Shown here piece after piece: positions 924 through 10,321 of a DNA stretch of 64,000 bases. The notes under the pieces were generated by a model. That model did not search any database. It was not told where the DNA came from and saw only the letters and a list, made by a program, of their open reading frames with translations. Origin of the DNA: Flavobacterium sp. CYK-55 (GTDB lineage Bacteria > Bacteroidota > Bacteroidia > Flavobacteriales > Flavobacteriaceae); assembly GCF_018413465.1 (NCBI RefSeq), contig NZ_JAHCDK010000003.1, forward strand, positions 62,001 through 126,000. Reading direction: 5' to 3'. Positions within the stretch are counted from its first letter, which is position 1, and every line of letters begins with the position of its first letter. The position numbers and the translations under genes are program-made.

Positions 924-3068
924 TTAGAAAATATTGTTTGTTTTTAAATACTTGGTAACATTCATCTTCGAATGTTCAAAAAAATTATATTCAGCACCTT
1001 GCCATCTTTGTATATAATGTTGATACTGATATTTGTGATTAAAGAAACAATTAAAATTTTTATCTTTATTTCTATTAAAAATACCAAAATTTTTTCCTTT
1101 AGACCAATTCCAATTATTTATGCTTCTTAATGCTAGTTGATAGACAAATATCTGTTTTATATAATCGTCTTCATTCTTTAAATCTTCAATTTCCTTATAT
1201 TGATCAAAAAAAGTCTTGTTTGTCTGTTCAATATAATTTGCTAACGTTTGATTTGTTTTCAATAGATGAAGATGCTTTAAAAAACTTTTATTTTGTATTA
1301 CCGCCTCTTTATCTGAATTGGGACAGACTACCAAATCATGAACGTTGTAATAGTTCCCTTTTTTAAAATAACCAGACAACAAAAGTAATGACCAAATCTT
1401 GTTAGATATATTATCATTATCTTCAAATAGTATGGCAAACTTTTCAGCAATGCTTTTAAAAATCTCTAAATTAAAATTTTCTACGCTTACATTAGTATAA
1501 TCTCGTTTGTATTCAAAATTTAAAATAGATACCTGATTAAAATAAGATGCCTGAATCAAATGGCCAATTTTTCCTTTGTTTACTGTATGGTCTTCATATT
1601 TCCAGAATAAATCTTCAATCTCATTTCTATTTTTAAAGGCTTTGAATATTCTCAATTTAAAATCGACATCGTTTGTTAATATTGATTTGGAGACTAATGA
1701 TCGCTTTAATAAAGTAATGTCTGCAATATCGTCTGAATTCTCTAAAAGATTGGTCACCATTTTTAATGCATTAATGACCTGTTTGTTAATAGTTTTTCTG
1801 ATTGTAACATCATCTTTATACGTGCTCAAAAAACGAATTAATCTGAAAAGATTTTGATTGTTTATAGGCTTACCTGCATCAATCAACTTTTTGCAATAAA
1901 GAATAGCGGGAAGCAGCAGAAAACACTCCATTTGTTCGATATGCTTTTTTACAGGATGTAACAAGCGCAATGGCAATAGGTCAGTTTTAATGGTGTAGAT
2001 TGTTTCCAGTGTTTTTGTGTCTGCATGGTATTCATTAAAGATATAGTCCAATGCTTTAAAATATTTTTCAAGGATTTCTAAAGTCAAATACTGGTTTTTT
2101 AATTCAATTTCGTCAGCCTGAATTAACCGGATAATCTCTTTTACATTTTCAGCATTTTCATCATCGTCATCGTTGTTAATATCTTCATTTTGTTCAGTCA
2201 TTTCTATAATTTGAACCCATCTTAGAAATTCATTAAACCCAGAGTCTGAATTCGAATTATGGAGACCTTTTCGTTTCCAAAAAAAGTCCTGCCAGTTTTC
2301 CCATTTTTTTCCCCATTCATTTTGCTGATCATCTTTCACCATGATAGATGCCTTTGTCTCCTCATTTTTTGAAAGAGCTTCTCCTCGTGCATTCATGGTT
2401 ATGTATAATTCTTCCCCTTGAGATGTTGCTTCAGTTTTAAAATGCCAAAACCTTACGTAGCTTAATATGTAATCAAAATATATTGTTTTGTCTGCAACAA
2501 AAAAAGAGCATATTATTTCCAATGCTTTAATAATTGCCTTTATAGAAGGATCTTTTTTATAATCATTTAAAAACCATGTTTGTCCTTGCAGATTTAATAA
2601 TTGTTCAACAGTATCGCTCTTTTCTACGAGTTCGAGTAAAAACCTATGTGTTAAATTCCTGACTTTGTAATCAAATGCCATTGAGAGTAATTCTTCATAA
2701 CGAATTAGGTTTAAAAAATCATCTTTTCGGACTTCTTTAATACTGAAGTAAAACAACAATAAGAAAAGTGTGGTAAACCTTTGCTGTCCATCAATTAAAT
2801 TTTCATCTAAAAACCTTTCATTATCTATTGTTACATAATCGGGCTTATAAGTATATAAAAAACCAATGTTTATTTTTGATTTATTTGTTGGGGTACCACA
2901 ACTTAAACAACCATCAGAAGCTTTAGATTTGATATTTTCAATAAAATTGAGTAATACCTTTGGATTATTTCCCCAAACATACTCTCTTTGAATCTCAGGA
3001 ATAATAAAATTGTTCTGAGACAATAGGAATAAAATATTTTGCTCTTTTAAATAATTTTTAGTCTTCAT
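924..3068 (-). CDS. DUF262 domain protein, 714 aa (RloF/GmrS-like)
   Basis: The N-terminal DUF262 fold is visible: IPEIQREYVW at residues 23-32 and DGQQRFTT at 93-100, the two nucleotide-binding signatures of DUF262/GmrS proteins (ParB/sulfiredoxin-like NTPase fold). Unlike its neighbour it shows no clear DUF1524 His/Asn motif; the C-terminal 600 residues are not otherwise recognised. An acidic Asn/Asp-rich stretch lies near residue 285. The start ATG overlaps the stop of the upstream DUF262 gene in an ATGA overlap (3065-3068), indicating translational coupling. The DNA is very AT-rich compared with hsdM. GmrSD proteins are modification-dependent type IV nucleases, and RloF genes are embedded in type I RM loci. 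I infer that this protein works with the 620-aa DUF262-DUF1524 protein as a two-part NTPase/nuclease, but this is not proven. Confidence 0.85.
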   Translation of the reverse strand: MKTKNYLKEQNILFLLSQNNFIIPEIQREYVWGNNPKVLLNFIENIKSKASDGCLSCGTPTNKSKINIGFLYTYKPDYVTIDNERFLDENLIDGQQRFTTLFLLLFYFSIKEVRKDDFLNLIRYEELLSMAFDYKVRNLTHRFLLELVEKSDTVEQLLNLQGQTWFLNDYKKDPSIKAIIKALEIICSFFVADKTIYFDYILSYVRFWHFKTEATSQGEELYITMNARGEALSKNEETKASIMVKDDQQNEWGKKWENWQDFFWKRKGLHNSNSDSGFNEFLRWVQIIEMTEQNEDINNDDDDENAENVKEIIRLIQADEIELKNQYLTLEILEKYFKALDYIFNEYHADTKTLETIYTIKTDLLPLRLLHPVKKHIEQMECFLLLPAILYCKKLIDAGKPINNQNLFRLIRFLSTYKDDVTIRKTINKQVINALKMVTNLLENSDDIADITLLKRSLVSKSILTNDVDFKLRIFKAFKNRNEIEDLFWKYEDHTVNKGKIGHLIQASYFNQVSILNFEYKRDYTNVSVENFNLEIFKSIAEKFAILFEDNDNISNKIWSLLLLSGYFKKGNYYNVHDLVVCPNSDKEAVIQNKSFLKHLHLLKTNQTLANYIEQTNKTFFDQYKEIEDLKNEDDYIKQIFVYQLALRSINNWNWSKGKNFGIFNRNKDKNFNCFFNHKYQYQHYIQRWQGAEYNFFEHSKMNVTKYLKTNNIF

Positions 3069-4927
3069 ACCTGCTCGTGTTTTTTCTGCACAAAAGCCTC
3101 TAATGACAATGCTATTTTGTTAGCATTATTAGCAATGTCGTTCATCGTCCAATCATTTAAATCTTCTGATGAATTTAGTTGTTTAGTAAATACTTTTAAT
3201 GTGTGTTGTCTAACATATTTCCCTAGCTGGGTATTTTTTATCACGCTAGCTCTTTTGTCAATATAATAATCATTACCAAAACCTCTGTTTATACTATAAT
3301 GTAGTAAAACTAAATTCCCAATAGAATTGATATTGGTTTCCTCATGAATTTTTTTAGACAAATTATTTAAAATTTCTTCCTTTTCATATTCATCCAATTC
3401 CATCCATTCCTCCTCGGTTTCTGTCAATTCAGTTAAATTTAATTTTCGTAAGTAGGAGTTGATTAATCCATGAGCATCATTATTTTTTAATTCTTTTATG
3501 CTTTTGGGAGTAGCAGGATATATATGCTCTTTATCTTCATCATTTTTCTTAAAATGGGTCGATTTTAAAAATGGTAAGTACTCATTTTCTGAAAGGTCAA
3601 TAATATCTAATAAGACGAGTGTTTTTTCAAGTTGTTTACTGTCATACCAATTTGTTTTCTCACCTGTATTATAATCAAGTATTTTCCCTTTCCAATATTC
3701 AAATCCTTGCTTAGGCTTGCCCTCAACGCCAAATGCTGTGACCGTAACTAATCTTTTCAATTCATTTTTAAATTGATCACGGGTATTGGATTTATTATTC
3801 CAGAAATTTACAATACTTCTGAAGTTAAAAGTAGGGCTGTTGCTAGCCAAATAACCTAAGTAATGATATATTGTCCTATCATCATACCAATCAACCAGAG
3901 TTCTGTGAAGTGATAAAATATCGTGATACAGTTTTAAAGCACTGATCTTTTTTGTTTCAAAATATTTCAGCTTTACTGATTTATATTTATTTTCAACATC
4001 ACTATATTCTTTTTTAAGACTTTGCAGCCATAAACTGTATAATAGGTTAATAGCATTAATATTAAAATCAAAACTTATGGTCTCCTCAGCATCCGTAAAT
4101 ATTTTCACGAATGGAAGAAAAAACTCTTTCACATTTTCCTGATTCCACCATTGATTTATCTCGTCCAGTTCCCATCCAATTCGTATTCTTCTTTCGTTTA
4201 ATCTAACAACATCCTTAATATTTTTCGGGTCATAGAGTTCCATTTCTTGTTTGGCAACTCTGGTAATCAAAATGGCACGTATCAGGTCAGCTCCATCCAA
4301 AGGGACTTTTCCGGTGTTTAAATTCATAAACAACTCCTGCTCTGAGATATTTTCTATTCTGTTTATAATCAGCTTTACATTGTTTAGAATTTTGCTTTTA
4401 AAACTTTCCTTGTTTACATTAGGATTCATAGTAAACCAATGCTGAAAAGTTTTAATAGCATTATACATAAAGAAAATGTCCTGAAAATCAAAATCACTAC
4501 CTTTTTCTTCAACAAAATTCTGAAAATCGGTGCTCTCTAAAACTGATTCTAAAAATTCTGATTCAGTAATGAGCAGTTGAATAAAATTATTGGATGTTTC
4601 TCTTACTGCATATATTAATTTCCCTTCTACCTTTTCATATACACCTAAATAAGTAAGCAGTAGCGCAATAGTGGTTAGTCTTTGTTGTCCATCAACAACA
4701 TTTATTTTCTCCTTGGTATCTTTTTGAGATACCAATGTTATATTTTGCAGACAGTAAAATAAGTCTTCATCGCCATCTGTTTCAAAATCATTGATATCAT
4801 TCAGTAGCTGCTCAATTTGTTGTGCACTCCACTTGTAGCCCCTTTGATATTCTGGGATATTGTATTGCTGCCCAACATTGAGATAACTGCCAAAAACTTG
4901 ATTTACACTATAGATTAGTTCTGCCAT
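3065..4927 (-). CDS. DUF262-DUF1524 protein, 620 aa (GmrSD-like nuclease)
   Basis: IPEYQRGYKW at residues 24-33 and DGQQRLTT at 79-86 mark the DUF262 NTPase domain. The C-terminus carries EHIYP starting at about residue 467 and NSIGNLVLLHYSIN at about 534-547, the paired motifs of DUF1524, an HNH-like (His-Me finger) nuclease domain. The length and order match single-chain GmrSD type IV restriction enzymes, which cleave glucosylated or otherwise modified phage DNA in an NTP-dependent way. It starts 2 bp after the hsdS stop and overlaps the next DUF262 gene by 4 bp, so it is part of the RM operon. Two unlike DUF262 genes in tandem inside a type I RM operon suggest a combined defence: methylation-guided restriction of unmodified DNA plus attack on modified DNA. 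The target is inferred, not shown. Confidence 0.88.
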   Translation of the reverse strand: MAELIYSVNQVFGSYLNVGQQYNIPEYQRGYKWSAQQIEQLLNDINDFETDGDEDLFYCLQNITLVSQKDTKEKINVVDGQQRLTTIALLLTYLGVYEKVEGKLIYAVRETSNNFIQLLITESEFLESVLESTDFQNFVEEKGSDFDFQDIFFMYNAIKTFQHWFTMNPNVNKESFKSKILNNVKLIINRIENISEQELFMNLNTGKVPLDGADLIRAILITRVAKQEMELYDPKNIKDVVRLNERRIRIGWELDEINQWWNQENVKEFFLPFVKIFTDAEETISFDFNINAINLLYSLWLQSLKKEYSDVENKYKSVKLKYFETKKISALKLYHDILSLHRTLVDWYDDRTIYHYLGYLASNSPTFNFRSIVNFWNNKSNTRDQFKNELKRLVTVTAFGVEGKPKQGFEYWKGKILDYNTGEKTNWYDSKQLEKTLVLLDIIDLSENEYLPFLKSTHFKKNDEDKEHIYPATPKSIKELKNNDAHGLINSYLRKLNLTELTETEEEWMELDEYEKEEILNNLSKKIHEETNINSIGNLVLLHYSINRGFGNDYYIDKRASVIKNTQLGKYVRQHTLKVFTKQLNSSEDLNDWTMNDIANNANKIALSLEAFVQKKHEQV

Positions 4928-8104: not shown

Positions 8105-8167
8105 GTTTCAGACTAAGCTTCGTAACTTTTTTAGCCCGTTGGGCTTTGGGGTAGAAGGGATGATTTT

Positions 8168-8594
8168 ATGTTGTATGTTGTATGTTGAATGTTGAATGTT
8201 GAATGTTGAATGTTGTATGTTGAATGTTGTATGTTGAATGTTGTATGTTGAATGTTGTATGTTGAATGTTGTATGTTGAATGTTGAATGTTGTATGTTGA
8301 ATGTTGTATGTTGTATGTTGAATGTTGTATGTTGTATGTTGAATGTTGAATGTTGTATGTTGAATGTTGTATGTTGAATGTTGTATGTTGTATGTTGAAT
8401 GTTGTATGTTGAATGTTGTATGTTGTATGTTGTATGTTGTATGTTGAATGTTGTATGTTGAATGTTGTATGTTGAATGTTGTATGTTGTATGTTGAATGT
8501 TGAATGTTGTATGTTGTATGTTGAATGTTGAATGTTGTATGTTGAATGTTGTATGTTGAATGTTGTATGTTGTATGTTGTATGTTGTATGTTGA
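8168..8594. repeat. 61-unit heptamer array ATGTTG(A/T)
   Basis: Sixty-one uninterrupted 7-bp units in perfect phase. The only variation is the seventh base, which is T in 33 units and A in 28, in an irregular order. Because no reverse-strand codon of the unit is a stop, it creates a 158-codon artefactual frame of repeating NIQHTTY/NIQHST; this is not a gene. It lies between hsdM and the XRE regulator. Confidence 0.95.
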
Positions 8595-8673
8595 ATGAGC
8601 TACACACTACAAAGAATCGTCAGGAACTCAGAAGTTAGAATTAATGACACGCTTCATTCGTGGAGCGCAGTAT

Positions 8674-8753
8674 CTCAGCTTCTCAGTCACTCAGGTACTC
8701 AGTATCTCAGCTTCTCAGTATCTCAGCTTCTCAGTCACTCAGCATCTCAGTCA
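8674..8753. repeat. Ten CTCAGNNN octamers
   Basis: Ten consecutive 8-bp units with an invariant CTCAG and a free triplet (CTT, TCA, GTA, TAT, CTT, TAT, CTT, TCA, CAT, TCA), preceded by one degenerate unit, CGCAGTAT. The family recurs at 8056-8070, 13512-13543 and just before kdsB. Confidence 0.9.
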
Positions 8754-8783
8754 CTAACATCATCGCGATCTGCAAAATTTTTT

Positions 8784-8899
8784 GTGACAAATAAAAAGTA
8801 AAATTCAAATTTGTCACAGTTTTTGTGACAAAATAAAAGTAAGTTTGAAATTTGTCACGGTTTTTGTGGCAAAAAAAAAGTATTTTTAAATTTTGTCAC
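8784..8899. promoter_or_regulatory. Three-unit 41-bp operator-like array before the XRE gene
   Basis: Arms GTGACAAA at 8784, 8825 and 8866 (the last GTGGCAAA) and TTTGTCAC at 8810, 8851 and 8892 repeat with an exact 41-bp period. Read between units they form TTTGTCAC-N7-GTGACAAA palindromes at 8810-8832 (perfect) and 8851-8873 (one mismatch). The array ends 12 bp before the XRE start codon. I infer an autoregulatory operator with sites about four helical turns apart; tandem hairpins are an alternative. Confidence 0.65.
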
Positions 8900-8911
8900 A
8901 AAAAATAAATC

Positions 8912-9430
8912 ATGAAAAAGCAACATCCTTTTAGAACCATGCTGGGGCTTACCCAACAAGAAATAGCTATGCTACTGGGGGTGAGTAGAAGCCAATGGGC
9001 CATGCACGAGCTCGGACAACGCGATTTGCCACTTGAGGCGCAACAACTACTTGCTGAAATGCTTACTGCTTTGCAACCTGTGGTCACCCAGCGCAAAGCA
9101 CCGGTGCCTTCATTAAAACAGCTCAAAGAAACCCAGCGCAGACTGAACCGAGTCCAAGAACGACTCGTACATTTTGAGCGTCAGCTAGCTAAAACACAAG
9201 AGCAAGAACGCTGTCAAGAAAATCGCCGCCGCTTGGCCGAGTATTTTAGCAGTCACAAAAAGCATCAAACCCATAGAGCAACAGGGGTAGCAAATTTATT
9301 GTTGTTGCAAGCGCCCAAACCCGATGAAACGGTTGCTCAGTTGGCACATCAACAACATCGTCTTGAAATACTTGGGCTTGAAGAAAAAATTTTAAAAGCT
9401 ACCCTGAAACAATTAGAACGACAACTTTGA
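8912..9430 (+). CDS. XRE-like helix-turn-helix protein with coiled coil, 172 aa
   Basis: Residues about 8-60 (MLGLTQQEIAMLLGVSRSQWAMHELGQRDLP) form a Cro/C1-type helix-turn-helix; residues about 70-125 are Gln/Arg/Glu-rich and look coiled-coil (QLKETQRRLNRVQERLVHFERQ is the core). The C-terminus is also helical. The start ATG is 12 bp after the last arm of a three-unit 41-bp palindromic array, which is the likely binding site. No partner toxin or phage gene is adjacent; the next gene on the same strand (9905) is an unknown helical protein of similar size. It is probably a DNA-binding regulator of an accessory element. The target and effector are unknown. Confidence 0.8.
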   Translation: MKKQHPFRTMLGLTQQEIAMLLGVSRSQWAMHELGQRDLPLEAQQLLAEMLTALQPVVTQRKAPVPSLKQLKETQRRLNRVQERLVHFERQLAKTQEQERCQENRRRLAEYFSSHKKHQTHRATGVANLLLLQAPKPDETVAQLAHQQHRLEILGLEEKILKATLKQLERQL

Positions 9431-9820: not shown

Positions 9821-9904
9821 TTGGAAGCAATGACGGCTTATCCTAGTTTCGTTGAGCAATCTAAAAGTTAGGTTGTGCAAATGTTTAACTTAAATTTTTT
9901 TATT

Positions 9905-10321
9905 ATGAACTATTCAATTAACAATGTAACAGATGTAGCCGACTGCAATGTTTTACTTTCATGGGCTGCCAAAGAGAAAGCTGACTTAAACTTCAAAAAG
10001 CTTTCTGATGAGCGTTTAACTGCGCGTTACGCCACTACTGCTGCCGAACTCGATGCGGATCTTCAAGTAATCATGGCTGAGATTGCTGCTACCGATACGG
10101 TAATTGCTATGTTGCCTGAAGGAAGCTCACGTGAAGACGCCATGAACAAAAAAACAAGACTTGAGTATAAAAAATTCTTGTTAGAAGTGCGCAAAGAAAG
10201 CAATGGTGTTGTGGCTTTACTTGAAAAAGAAGCTGACTTGGCCGGAGTAATCAATCAGCTGAGCGAGATTGATGCTTTTATCAACCTTGTTGAAACCAGA
10301 AAAAGAGACCTCACGGCTTAA
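9905..10321 (+). CDS. Unknown helical protein, 138 aa
   Basis: No recognised family. I start at the ATG at 9905 (MNYSINNVTDVADC), which follows a T-rich leader; a further in-frame ATG 30 bp upstream is less likely. The sequence is mostly helical and charged, with heptad-like Leu/Ala spacing (VLLSWAAKEKADLNFKKL and EYKKFLLEVRKESNGVVALL). It has no signal peptide and no membrane segment. A clean rho-independent terminator follows 22 bp after the stop. The decamer array lies upstream. It may be a small structural or DNA-associated protein; no function is assigned. Confidence 0.65.
   Translation: MNYSINNVTDVADCNVLLSWAAKEKADLNFKKLSDERLTARYATTAAELDADLQVIMAEIAATDTVIAMLPEGSSREDAMNKKTRLEYKKFLLEVRKESNGVVALLEKEADLAGVINQLSEIDAFINLVETRKRDLTA

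Follow-up and report, generated by a model that had tools for sequence, protein, structure and literature searches.

What are the three evenly spaced inverted repeats that stand just upstream of a gene for a small XRE/Cro-C1-type regulator, and what has the protein encoded there to do with them? The repeats lie in the window, the whole 64,000-nucleotide stretch of DNA analysed here, and they are very probably docking sites of the XRE protein whose gene they precede, as judged by comparison of sequences.

The array and the gene that follows it

The features of the locus are the following:

8781..8818, plus strand: array unit 1, arms 8784-8791 (GTGACAAA) and 8810-8817 (TTTGTCAC), word GAC/GAC
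8822..8858, plus strand: array unit 2, arms 8825-8832 and 8851-8858, word GAC/GAC
8863..8900, plus strand: array unit 3, arms 8866-8873 (GTGGCAAA) and 8892-8899 (TTTGTCAC), word GGC/GAC
8912..9430, plus strand: XRE/Cro-C1-type regulator of 172 aa, N-terminal HTH and C-terminal long helical hairpin
8987..9013, plus strand: codons of residues 26-34, of which residues 26, 27, 30, 31 and 34 predict the array word
9905..10321, plus strand: gene of a 138-aa all-helical partner protein, ATG at 9905; the listed open reading frame starts from GTG at 9875 and has 148 aa

The three inverted-repeat units extend over positions 8784-8899 and follow one another in steps of exactly 41 bp, the left arms starting at 8784, 8825 and 8866 and the right arms at 8810, 8851 and 8892. 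The distance from arm to arm is 18 bp within each unit, and the gap from unit to unit is 7 bp. The first-pass annotation had claimed an exact 41-bp period of such arms ending 12 bp ahead of the XRE start. The period holds, and so do the arms, except that the third left arm reads GTGGCAAA and not GTGACAAA: five of the six arms carry GAC and this one GGC. The 12 bp are also correct, as the final arm stops at 8899 and the XRE ATG is at 8912. A scanner for tandem TGTNNN...N'N'N'ACA units finds three units here. On 1640 dinucleotide shuffles of 82 upstream regions it found two units three times and three units never, and chance is a poor explanation for the array. Two further repeats lie closely 5' of the array, namely a long TTGTATG/TTGAATG heptamer microsatellite at 8131-8607, with a minus-strand open reading frame of 158 aa open through it, and an octamer repeat of the CTCAGTAT type at 8660-8760.

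The window protein matches the HTH_19 family (E 8.5e-7; its 29.2 bits narrowly miss the cut-off of 30.2), and its profile matches the lambda-repressor-like chain 28tn (E 0.0013). A structure model with a mean pLDDT of 92 places helices at residues 6-11, 15-22, 26-33 and 41-54, the recognition helix being 26-33. These matches and the model identify a predicted lambda-repressor-like HTH domain of the kind by which XRE/Cro-C1 regulators are recognised. Positions 26, 27, 30 and 31 presumably correspond to 28, 29, 32 and 33 of the 434 repressor, according to our own alignment. Fold searches with the XRE and partner helical proteins returned generic helical bundles only, and the top match common to them, CT398, was not counted as evidence.

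The XRE family has a mean column identity of 37%. A protein-profile search of 299 Flavobacterium genomes detected homologs in 45, so that most of the genus is without the gene. In the source genome, a family search to E 10 gave only C3:70912, C1:308963, C7:100748 and the weak (0.06) C3:202698. No match was found in 72,556 plasmid records or in 50,697 phage records, and a related-locus search of genome contigs with the XRE gene as query gave no relative. The window XRE gene and the C7 paralog each have an array upstream. The C7 paralog (G000:C7:100748-101253) is broken by a frame break or an assembly error; its array is intact.

Arrays accompany the family elsewhere. The strict scanner, accepting any three-base word, detects at least two tandem units upstream of 38 of the 79 homologs found by protein search only, as compared with 3 of the 1640 shuffles and none of 82 in-gene controls. 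Eighty homologs had been taken first and 16 later, and 79 is the number after L118 (too little upstream DNA) was left out; with three loci that had been selected by their array or served as query the count becomes 41 of 82. A profile-search match in genome G081 and two broken matches of the second hold-out search were left out before counting. The step between units is 40 bp in 33 of 58 cases and 41 bp in 19, together 52 of 58, and this near-constant period of 40 or 41 bp is the one feature that would point to cooperativity. When genome contigs were searched for the exact pattern, 24 stretches matched; several come from named Flavobacterium species, and others from a Ferruginibacter and from Bacteroidetes MAGs. 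In further stretches of the 24 (for example from Clostridiales and Opitutae) the geometry looks different. The arrays of Flavobacterium sp. ENC (L032) and of Ferruginibacter paludis (L053) were found by their DNA pattern, and each has an XRE homolog directly 3' of it. A scan of viral contigs found no arrays. Rfam models searched on 15 loci matched 5S rRNA (twice), DUF805b and Flavo-1, and none matched on the arrays.

Three-base words and the recognition helix

The half-sites of the family have the frame TGT-NNN-A...T-N'N'N'-ACA in common, in which NNN varies: GAC, GGC, GTC, AGC, TTC, TGC, GAT, AAT, GTG and other words occur. Mutual information between the HTH columns and these bases was calculated for 36 proteins of less than 60% identity, with 1000 permutations and the maximum taken over 41 columns. 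Base 1 covaries with position 31 (z 14.5) and position 27 (z 6.6), base 2 with positions 30 (z 10.6) and 34 (z 6.8), and base 3 with position 26 (z 7.7), in each case with maxP <=0.002; base 3 covaries weakly also with position 28 (maxP 0.022). Residues 26, 27, 30, 31 and 34 are located in or just past the recognition helix.

These relationships can be written as a simple rule. Base 1 is A if residue 31 is L; otherwise A or G at 27 gives T, and S or T at 27 gives G. Base 2 is A if residue 30 is A or G; otherwise I, L, V or C at 34 gives G, and S, T, G or N at 34 gives T. Base 3 is C if residue 26 is R. The rule was built on the training data that it fits and was frozen after the mutual-information step, before the hold-outs. 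Words were callable at 53 of 83 training loci (41 of them clearly) and at 11 of 25 and 9 of 20 hold-out loci, and the hold-outs include loci of any similarity to the training set. The rule predicts 32 of 35 full words in-sample; shuffled data give a mean of 5.0 and a maximum of 14.

In the first hold-out, scored with a loosened scanner, 11 of the 25 loci were callable, and the rule gave five of five full words and 9/11, 9/9 and 6/6 of the single bases. The upstream DNA of 16 plus 7 of these 25 loci had been viewed before scoring, when the rule was already frozen. The final scoring omits seven distant loci (G480, G703) and L214, which has no usable open reading frame; two calls of TTT (L185, L188) are probably artefacts of T-runs. 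With the strict scanner, three of 16 loci had yielded words. A half-site counter, which mixed overlapping words and was replaced, called four of 33 loci (one full word of one correct; 28 of 34 in training). The second hold-out was pre-declared and consisted of 20 homologs from 12 unseen genomes. Nine of its loci were callable, with seven full words and 8/9, 8/9 and 9/9 single bases correct, a score reached by 1 of 5000 shuffles.

Full words are missed at L125, L139 and L162 in training and at L303 and L308 in the second hold-out. Single bases are missed also at L149 and L215, and L209, in a distant genome and read by the half-site counter only, is a miss. By eye, base 2 is A where the rule says T at the uncalled L177 and L185 (K30), and the word AAC is not visible at L203 and L210 (V27, L31).

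The relationship extends to remote relatives: among pairs of less than 35% identity, the observed word is common to 45 of the 57 with the same predicted word and to 6 of the 529 others. The window protein has R26, S27, A30, M31 and L34, from which GAC is predicted, the main word of its own array. Together, covariation and hold-outs indicate that the recognition helix sets the operator word. The binding of the XRE protein to the array, on which the first-pass annotation staked its reading, is strongly if indirectly supported, because residues of the helix covary with the word of the array and predict it, also in the pre-declared hold-out.

The regulator, a small protein with a lambda/434-type HTH and a C-terminal helical hairpin, would bind the array as a dimer, one dimer for each unit of about 40 bp, each arm being contacted by one recognition helix. 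TGT and ACA would form the frame shared by all, and the three bases that follow would be the specificity word set by residues 26, 27, 30, 31 and 34. A scan for pairs at 29 bp gave 22 arrays with 52 of 62 pairs exact, and one for pairs at 12 bp gave nine arrays with 12 of 22 exact; in a word-blind comparison of dimer sites 77 of 108 and 36 of 54 were identical, which is no real difference. Several occupied units on one face of the DNA upstream would repress the regulator's own gene. It is highly likely that the array serves as operator for the XRE protein whose gene follows it directly, with a dimer on every unit, a word set by the helix and self-repression as the outcome. Paralogs should not cross-regulate, because they have diverged to different words.

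Promoter, partner gene and arrays elsewhere

Autoregulation of the XRE gene through the array is likely, as arrays immediately precede the gene and many relatives have them within or close to a sequence of the sigma54 type. The motif TGGC-N7-TTG occurs upstream of XRE homologs at 39 of 106 loci in the sense orientation and at three in the antisense orientation; other spacings give 1-3 sense and 0-2 antisense occurrences. The strand bias alone is no proof of a promoter, because an in-gene control also has 13 sense and no antisense occurrences. RpoN is encoded in nine of nine genomes, including the source genome, and -24/-12 promoters of the sigma54 type are reported for F. psychrophilum in the available part of PMC9723704. 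A sigma54-type -24/-12 promoter is predicted in or near the array in many homologs. In several relatives the left arm of the last unit doubles as the -24 element TGGCA; this accounts for the GGC arm of arrays whose word is otherwise different (L104, L108, L111, L139). Upstream of the window XRE gene TGGCA is present (the GGC arm) and TTG at -12 is absent.

The reading of the first-pass annotation, cooperative autoregulation, fits these observations but is incomplete. The source genome (3.15 Mb) contains at least eight arrays besides those at XRE genes, so that the arrays cannot be autoregulatory operators only. They are located at

C1:511564, C2:170112, C2:454222, C3:58124, C3:123453, C3:425087, C16:8453 and C16:25462: scattered arrays of the source genome
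61455..61569, no strand assigned: second array of the window (= C3:123453), units TGC/TGC, GTC/GTC and GTC/GTC, without an adjoining XRE gene

None of the eight adjoins an XRE gene of this family, as far as a family search to E 10 detects. 5S rRNA genes are found at about 0.54 kb from C2:454222 and about 0.24 kb from C3:425087. A model of two units was applied to 150 first-look candidates in each genome. All 13 genomes with the XRE gene yielded arrays and none of the 11 without it did; the zero is the informative half, because the model was built on arrays from genomes with the gene.

The words of the scattered arrays may be mixed within one array (for example GTC-GGC-TGC in G233), and they tend to be those of the regulators present. 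GTC in the second window array is the word predicted for, and present at, the C7 paralog. The word of 55 of 91 scattered units is predicted for an XRE protein of the same genome, as compared with 34.2 +/- 9.2 in random sets, 55 of 5000 of which reached that number. The agreement is 20 of 24 units in the source genome, 9 of 20 in G488 and 12 of 26 in G201. Four of the 24 in the source genome (three TGC and one TAC/TGC) fit no XRE protein found there. The comparison used left-arm words, which simplifies mixed arms, and omitted two spurious arrays (window 23942, L277 1836). The 20 regions examined were top matches and no random sample, and one of them, L282, has no array according to the scanner. 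The scattered arrays are probably bound in trans by the same XRE proteins. If this is true, they would constitute a hitherto unknown Flavobacterium network or nucleoid system, absent from most of the genus.

The 138-aa helical protein downstream is a frequent companion. Its relatives stand beside the XRE gene at 25 of 80 and 6 of 16 loci in tblastn searches that covered about 300 bp downstream. By genome, relatives are present in 23 of 31 Flavobacterium genomes with the XRE gene, in the one more distant XRE-bearing genome that was tested and in none of 14 genomes without it. With a mean column identity of 68% the partner is better conserved than the XRE protein. Neither NCBIfam nor PADLOC matches it up to E 1, and plasmid records gave no match either. 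The best match in PHROGs has E 0.037, and the best in Pfam, SpoVT_C, has E 0.00042 in 5 of 26 members and 0.057 for the window protein; family libraries and solved structures give no convincing identity.

Alternative explanations and known systems

A wider role is conceivable, although we regard it as doubtful. Paralogous coiled-coil XRE dimers, each with one three-base word, may address the genome through the scattered mosaic arrays, mostly outside divergent gaps, and with the helical partner may bridge or insulate distant loci, limiting themselves through their own array.

Somewhat less probable is that the system organises or segregates chromosomes in the manner of KfrA or ParB with their arrays of sites, autoregulation being secondary. 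The coiled coil of the DNA binder, its repeated operators, the helical partner and the large number of sites in the genome are reminiscent of KfrA/KfrC of plasmid RA3, as far as the consulted part of PMC7783346 goes; against this, the family is missing from most Flavobacterium genomes (present in 45 of the 299). According to the same part of PMC7783346, KfrA, with KfrC, occurs on broad-host-range plasmids, is an autoregulator and has a repeated operator that overlaps its own promoter, and features held in common with it are an N-terminal HTH followed by a long alpha-helical part and a second, alpha-helical partner protein. RA3 KfrA has 345 aa and five 9-bp direct repeats and is encoded on a plasmid, whereas the system here has a protein of 172 aa, inverted-repeat units of about 40 bp, paralogs with different words and scattered arrays. 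The system would work like KfrA with a repeated operator but is not a KfrA member: the KfrA N-terminal domain is absent among the nine Pfam matches of the window XRE protein up to E 1, and the plasmid search was negative.

It is improbable that the XRE protein and its helical partner form a toxin-antitoxin or defence module with the array as its operator. XRE antitoxins autoregulate, a small gene often adjoins the XRE gene, and the genes upstream of the array resemble, by eye, a type I restriction-modification locus. The partner, however, matches no known toxin family convincingly (the NCBIfam, PADLOC, PHROGs and Pfam searches above), a new type of toxin being conceivable; 8 of the 31 XRE-bearing Flavobacterium genomes have no partner gene, and modules of this kind would not be expected to have arrays scattered over the genome. 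At window 924-4927, beside the presumed restriction-modification genes, stand two large genes (714 and 620 aa) with N termini that we take to be GmrSD/DUF262-like.

Quite improbably, the array is a dispersed palindromic repeat (REP/BIME-like or another miniature element) that stands beside the XRE gene by chance or insertion preference. The arrays away from XRE genes would suit this. So would the array at C3:58124-58244 (L006 4125-4245), which is very similar to that at window 8781-8902, has the same orientation and has about 45 bp of left flank in common with it, the gene being absent. Scattered arrays are also rare in divergent gaps, which hold 2 of 29 as compared with 24% of the gap length (P 0.019; the list allows 28 to 30 depending on flanks), and show no excess in convergent gaps (P 0.34). 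Transposase genes of the Y1 type also occur nearby: the C1 XRE paralog has one at a distance of about 390 bp, an XRE gene in G155 has one at about 1 kb, and so has an array in G201; in G000 and G155 the Y1 gene adjacent to XRE is the sole Y1 match found:

L057 4007-4573 (minus strand) and G155:C1:836717-836962: Y1-type (RAYT-like) transposase genes near XRE genes

However, the word of an array follows the helix residues of the adjoining protein, and chance adjacency cannot yield a word that tracks the helix of its neighbour. Furthermore, all 11 genomes without the XRE gene are free of arrays among their 150 candidates each. Y1_Tnp does not track arrays (10 of 13 genomes with arrays and 9 of 11 without), and the C1 transposase has, by eye, its own G+C-rich flanking hairpins. 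Dispersed intergenic arrays of palindromic units are a likeness to REP/BIME and RAYTs (available parts of PMC2817692 and PMC12306157); unlike those, the presence of arrays follows the XRE gene and their word the XRE helix. A REP/RAYT link was rejected as the main cause on the ground that presence tracks the XRE gene and not Y1 transposases. The C3:58124 and window arrays flank the presumed type I restriction-modification locus, and the C3:58124 copy is the one without an XRE gene.

Hairpins of RNA or single-stranded DNA (terminators, attenuators, folded recombination sites), in place of protein-bound duplex DNA, are very improbable: the window units fold as RNA better than shuffles (z -4.2, -3.0 and -3.9) and their arms covary, but such folding is expected of any inverted repeat and such covariation also of a dimer that contacts two half-sites, a word set by residues of the helix is predicted by protein recognition only, and mispairing arms are kept in some arrays (for example GAC/GAT in L156), so that hairpins alone were rejected as the main cause on the word-helix covariation and the mispairing.

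Repressors of the lambda/434 type (933W; PMC3317979, the part available) have the same HTH fold and take their specificity from a few residues of the recognition helix, as here. Unlike cI-type proteins, the XRE protein has a modelled C-terminal helical hairpin, a wide spacing of arms, arrays also away from its gene and no phage match. Correlations between HTH residues and operator bases have been obtained by comparative genomics for the IclR, GntR and MerR families (PMC8222616, PMC4494728 and PMC5045206, as far as their accessible text shows); here the family is another one, the word varies among paralogs within one genome, and a simple rule predicts it. A literature search with most subscription journals outside its coverage gave no description of such a layout of regulator and scattered arrays.

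The family may be regarded as a natural collection of HTH relatives whose DNA words stand alongside, and because the words adjoin the genes, a recognition code of the lambda/434 fold becomes readable and testable residue by residue. It also represents a fast-diversifying regulator family in Flavobacterium, with addresses that change within single genomes and mosaic arrays that are dispersed. One subgroup of XRE homologs (L183, L184, L186) has another upstream repeat (...TTTTCAxTAGCGA.AAAAATGCACCA... type) instead of TGTNNN arrays. A different XRE gene, of 132-136 aa (MSTxTxPxxIGRxISRIRE...), adjoins arrays three times in two genomes (L283 2946-3356, L285 2110-2520 and L050 2089-2487).
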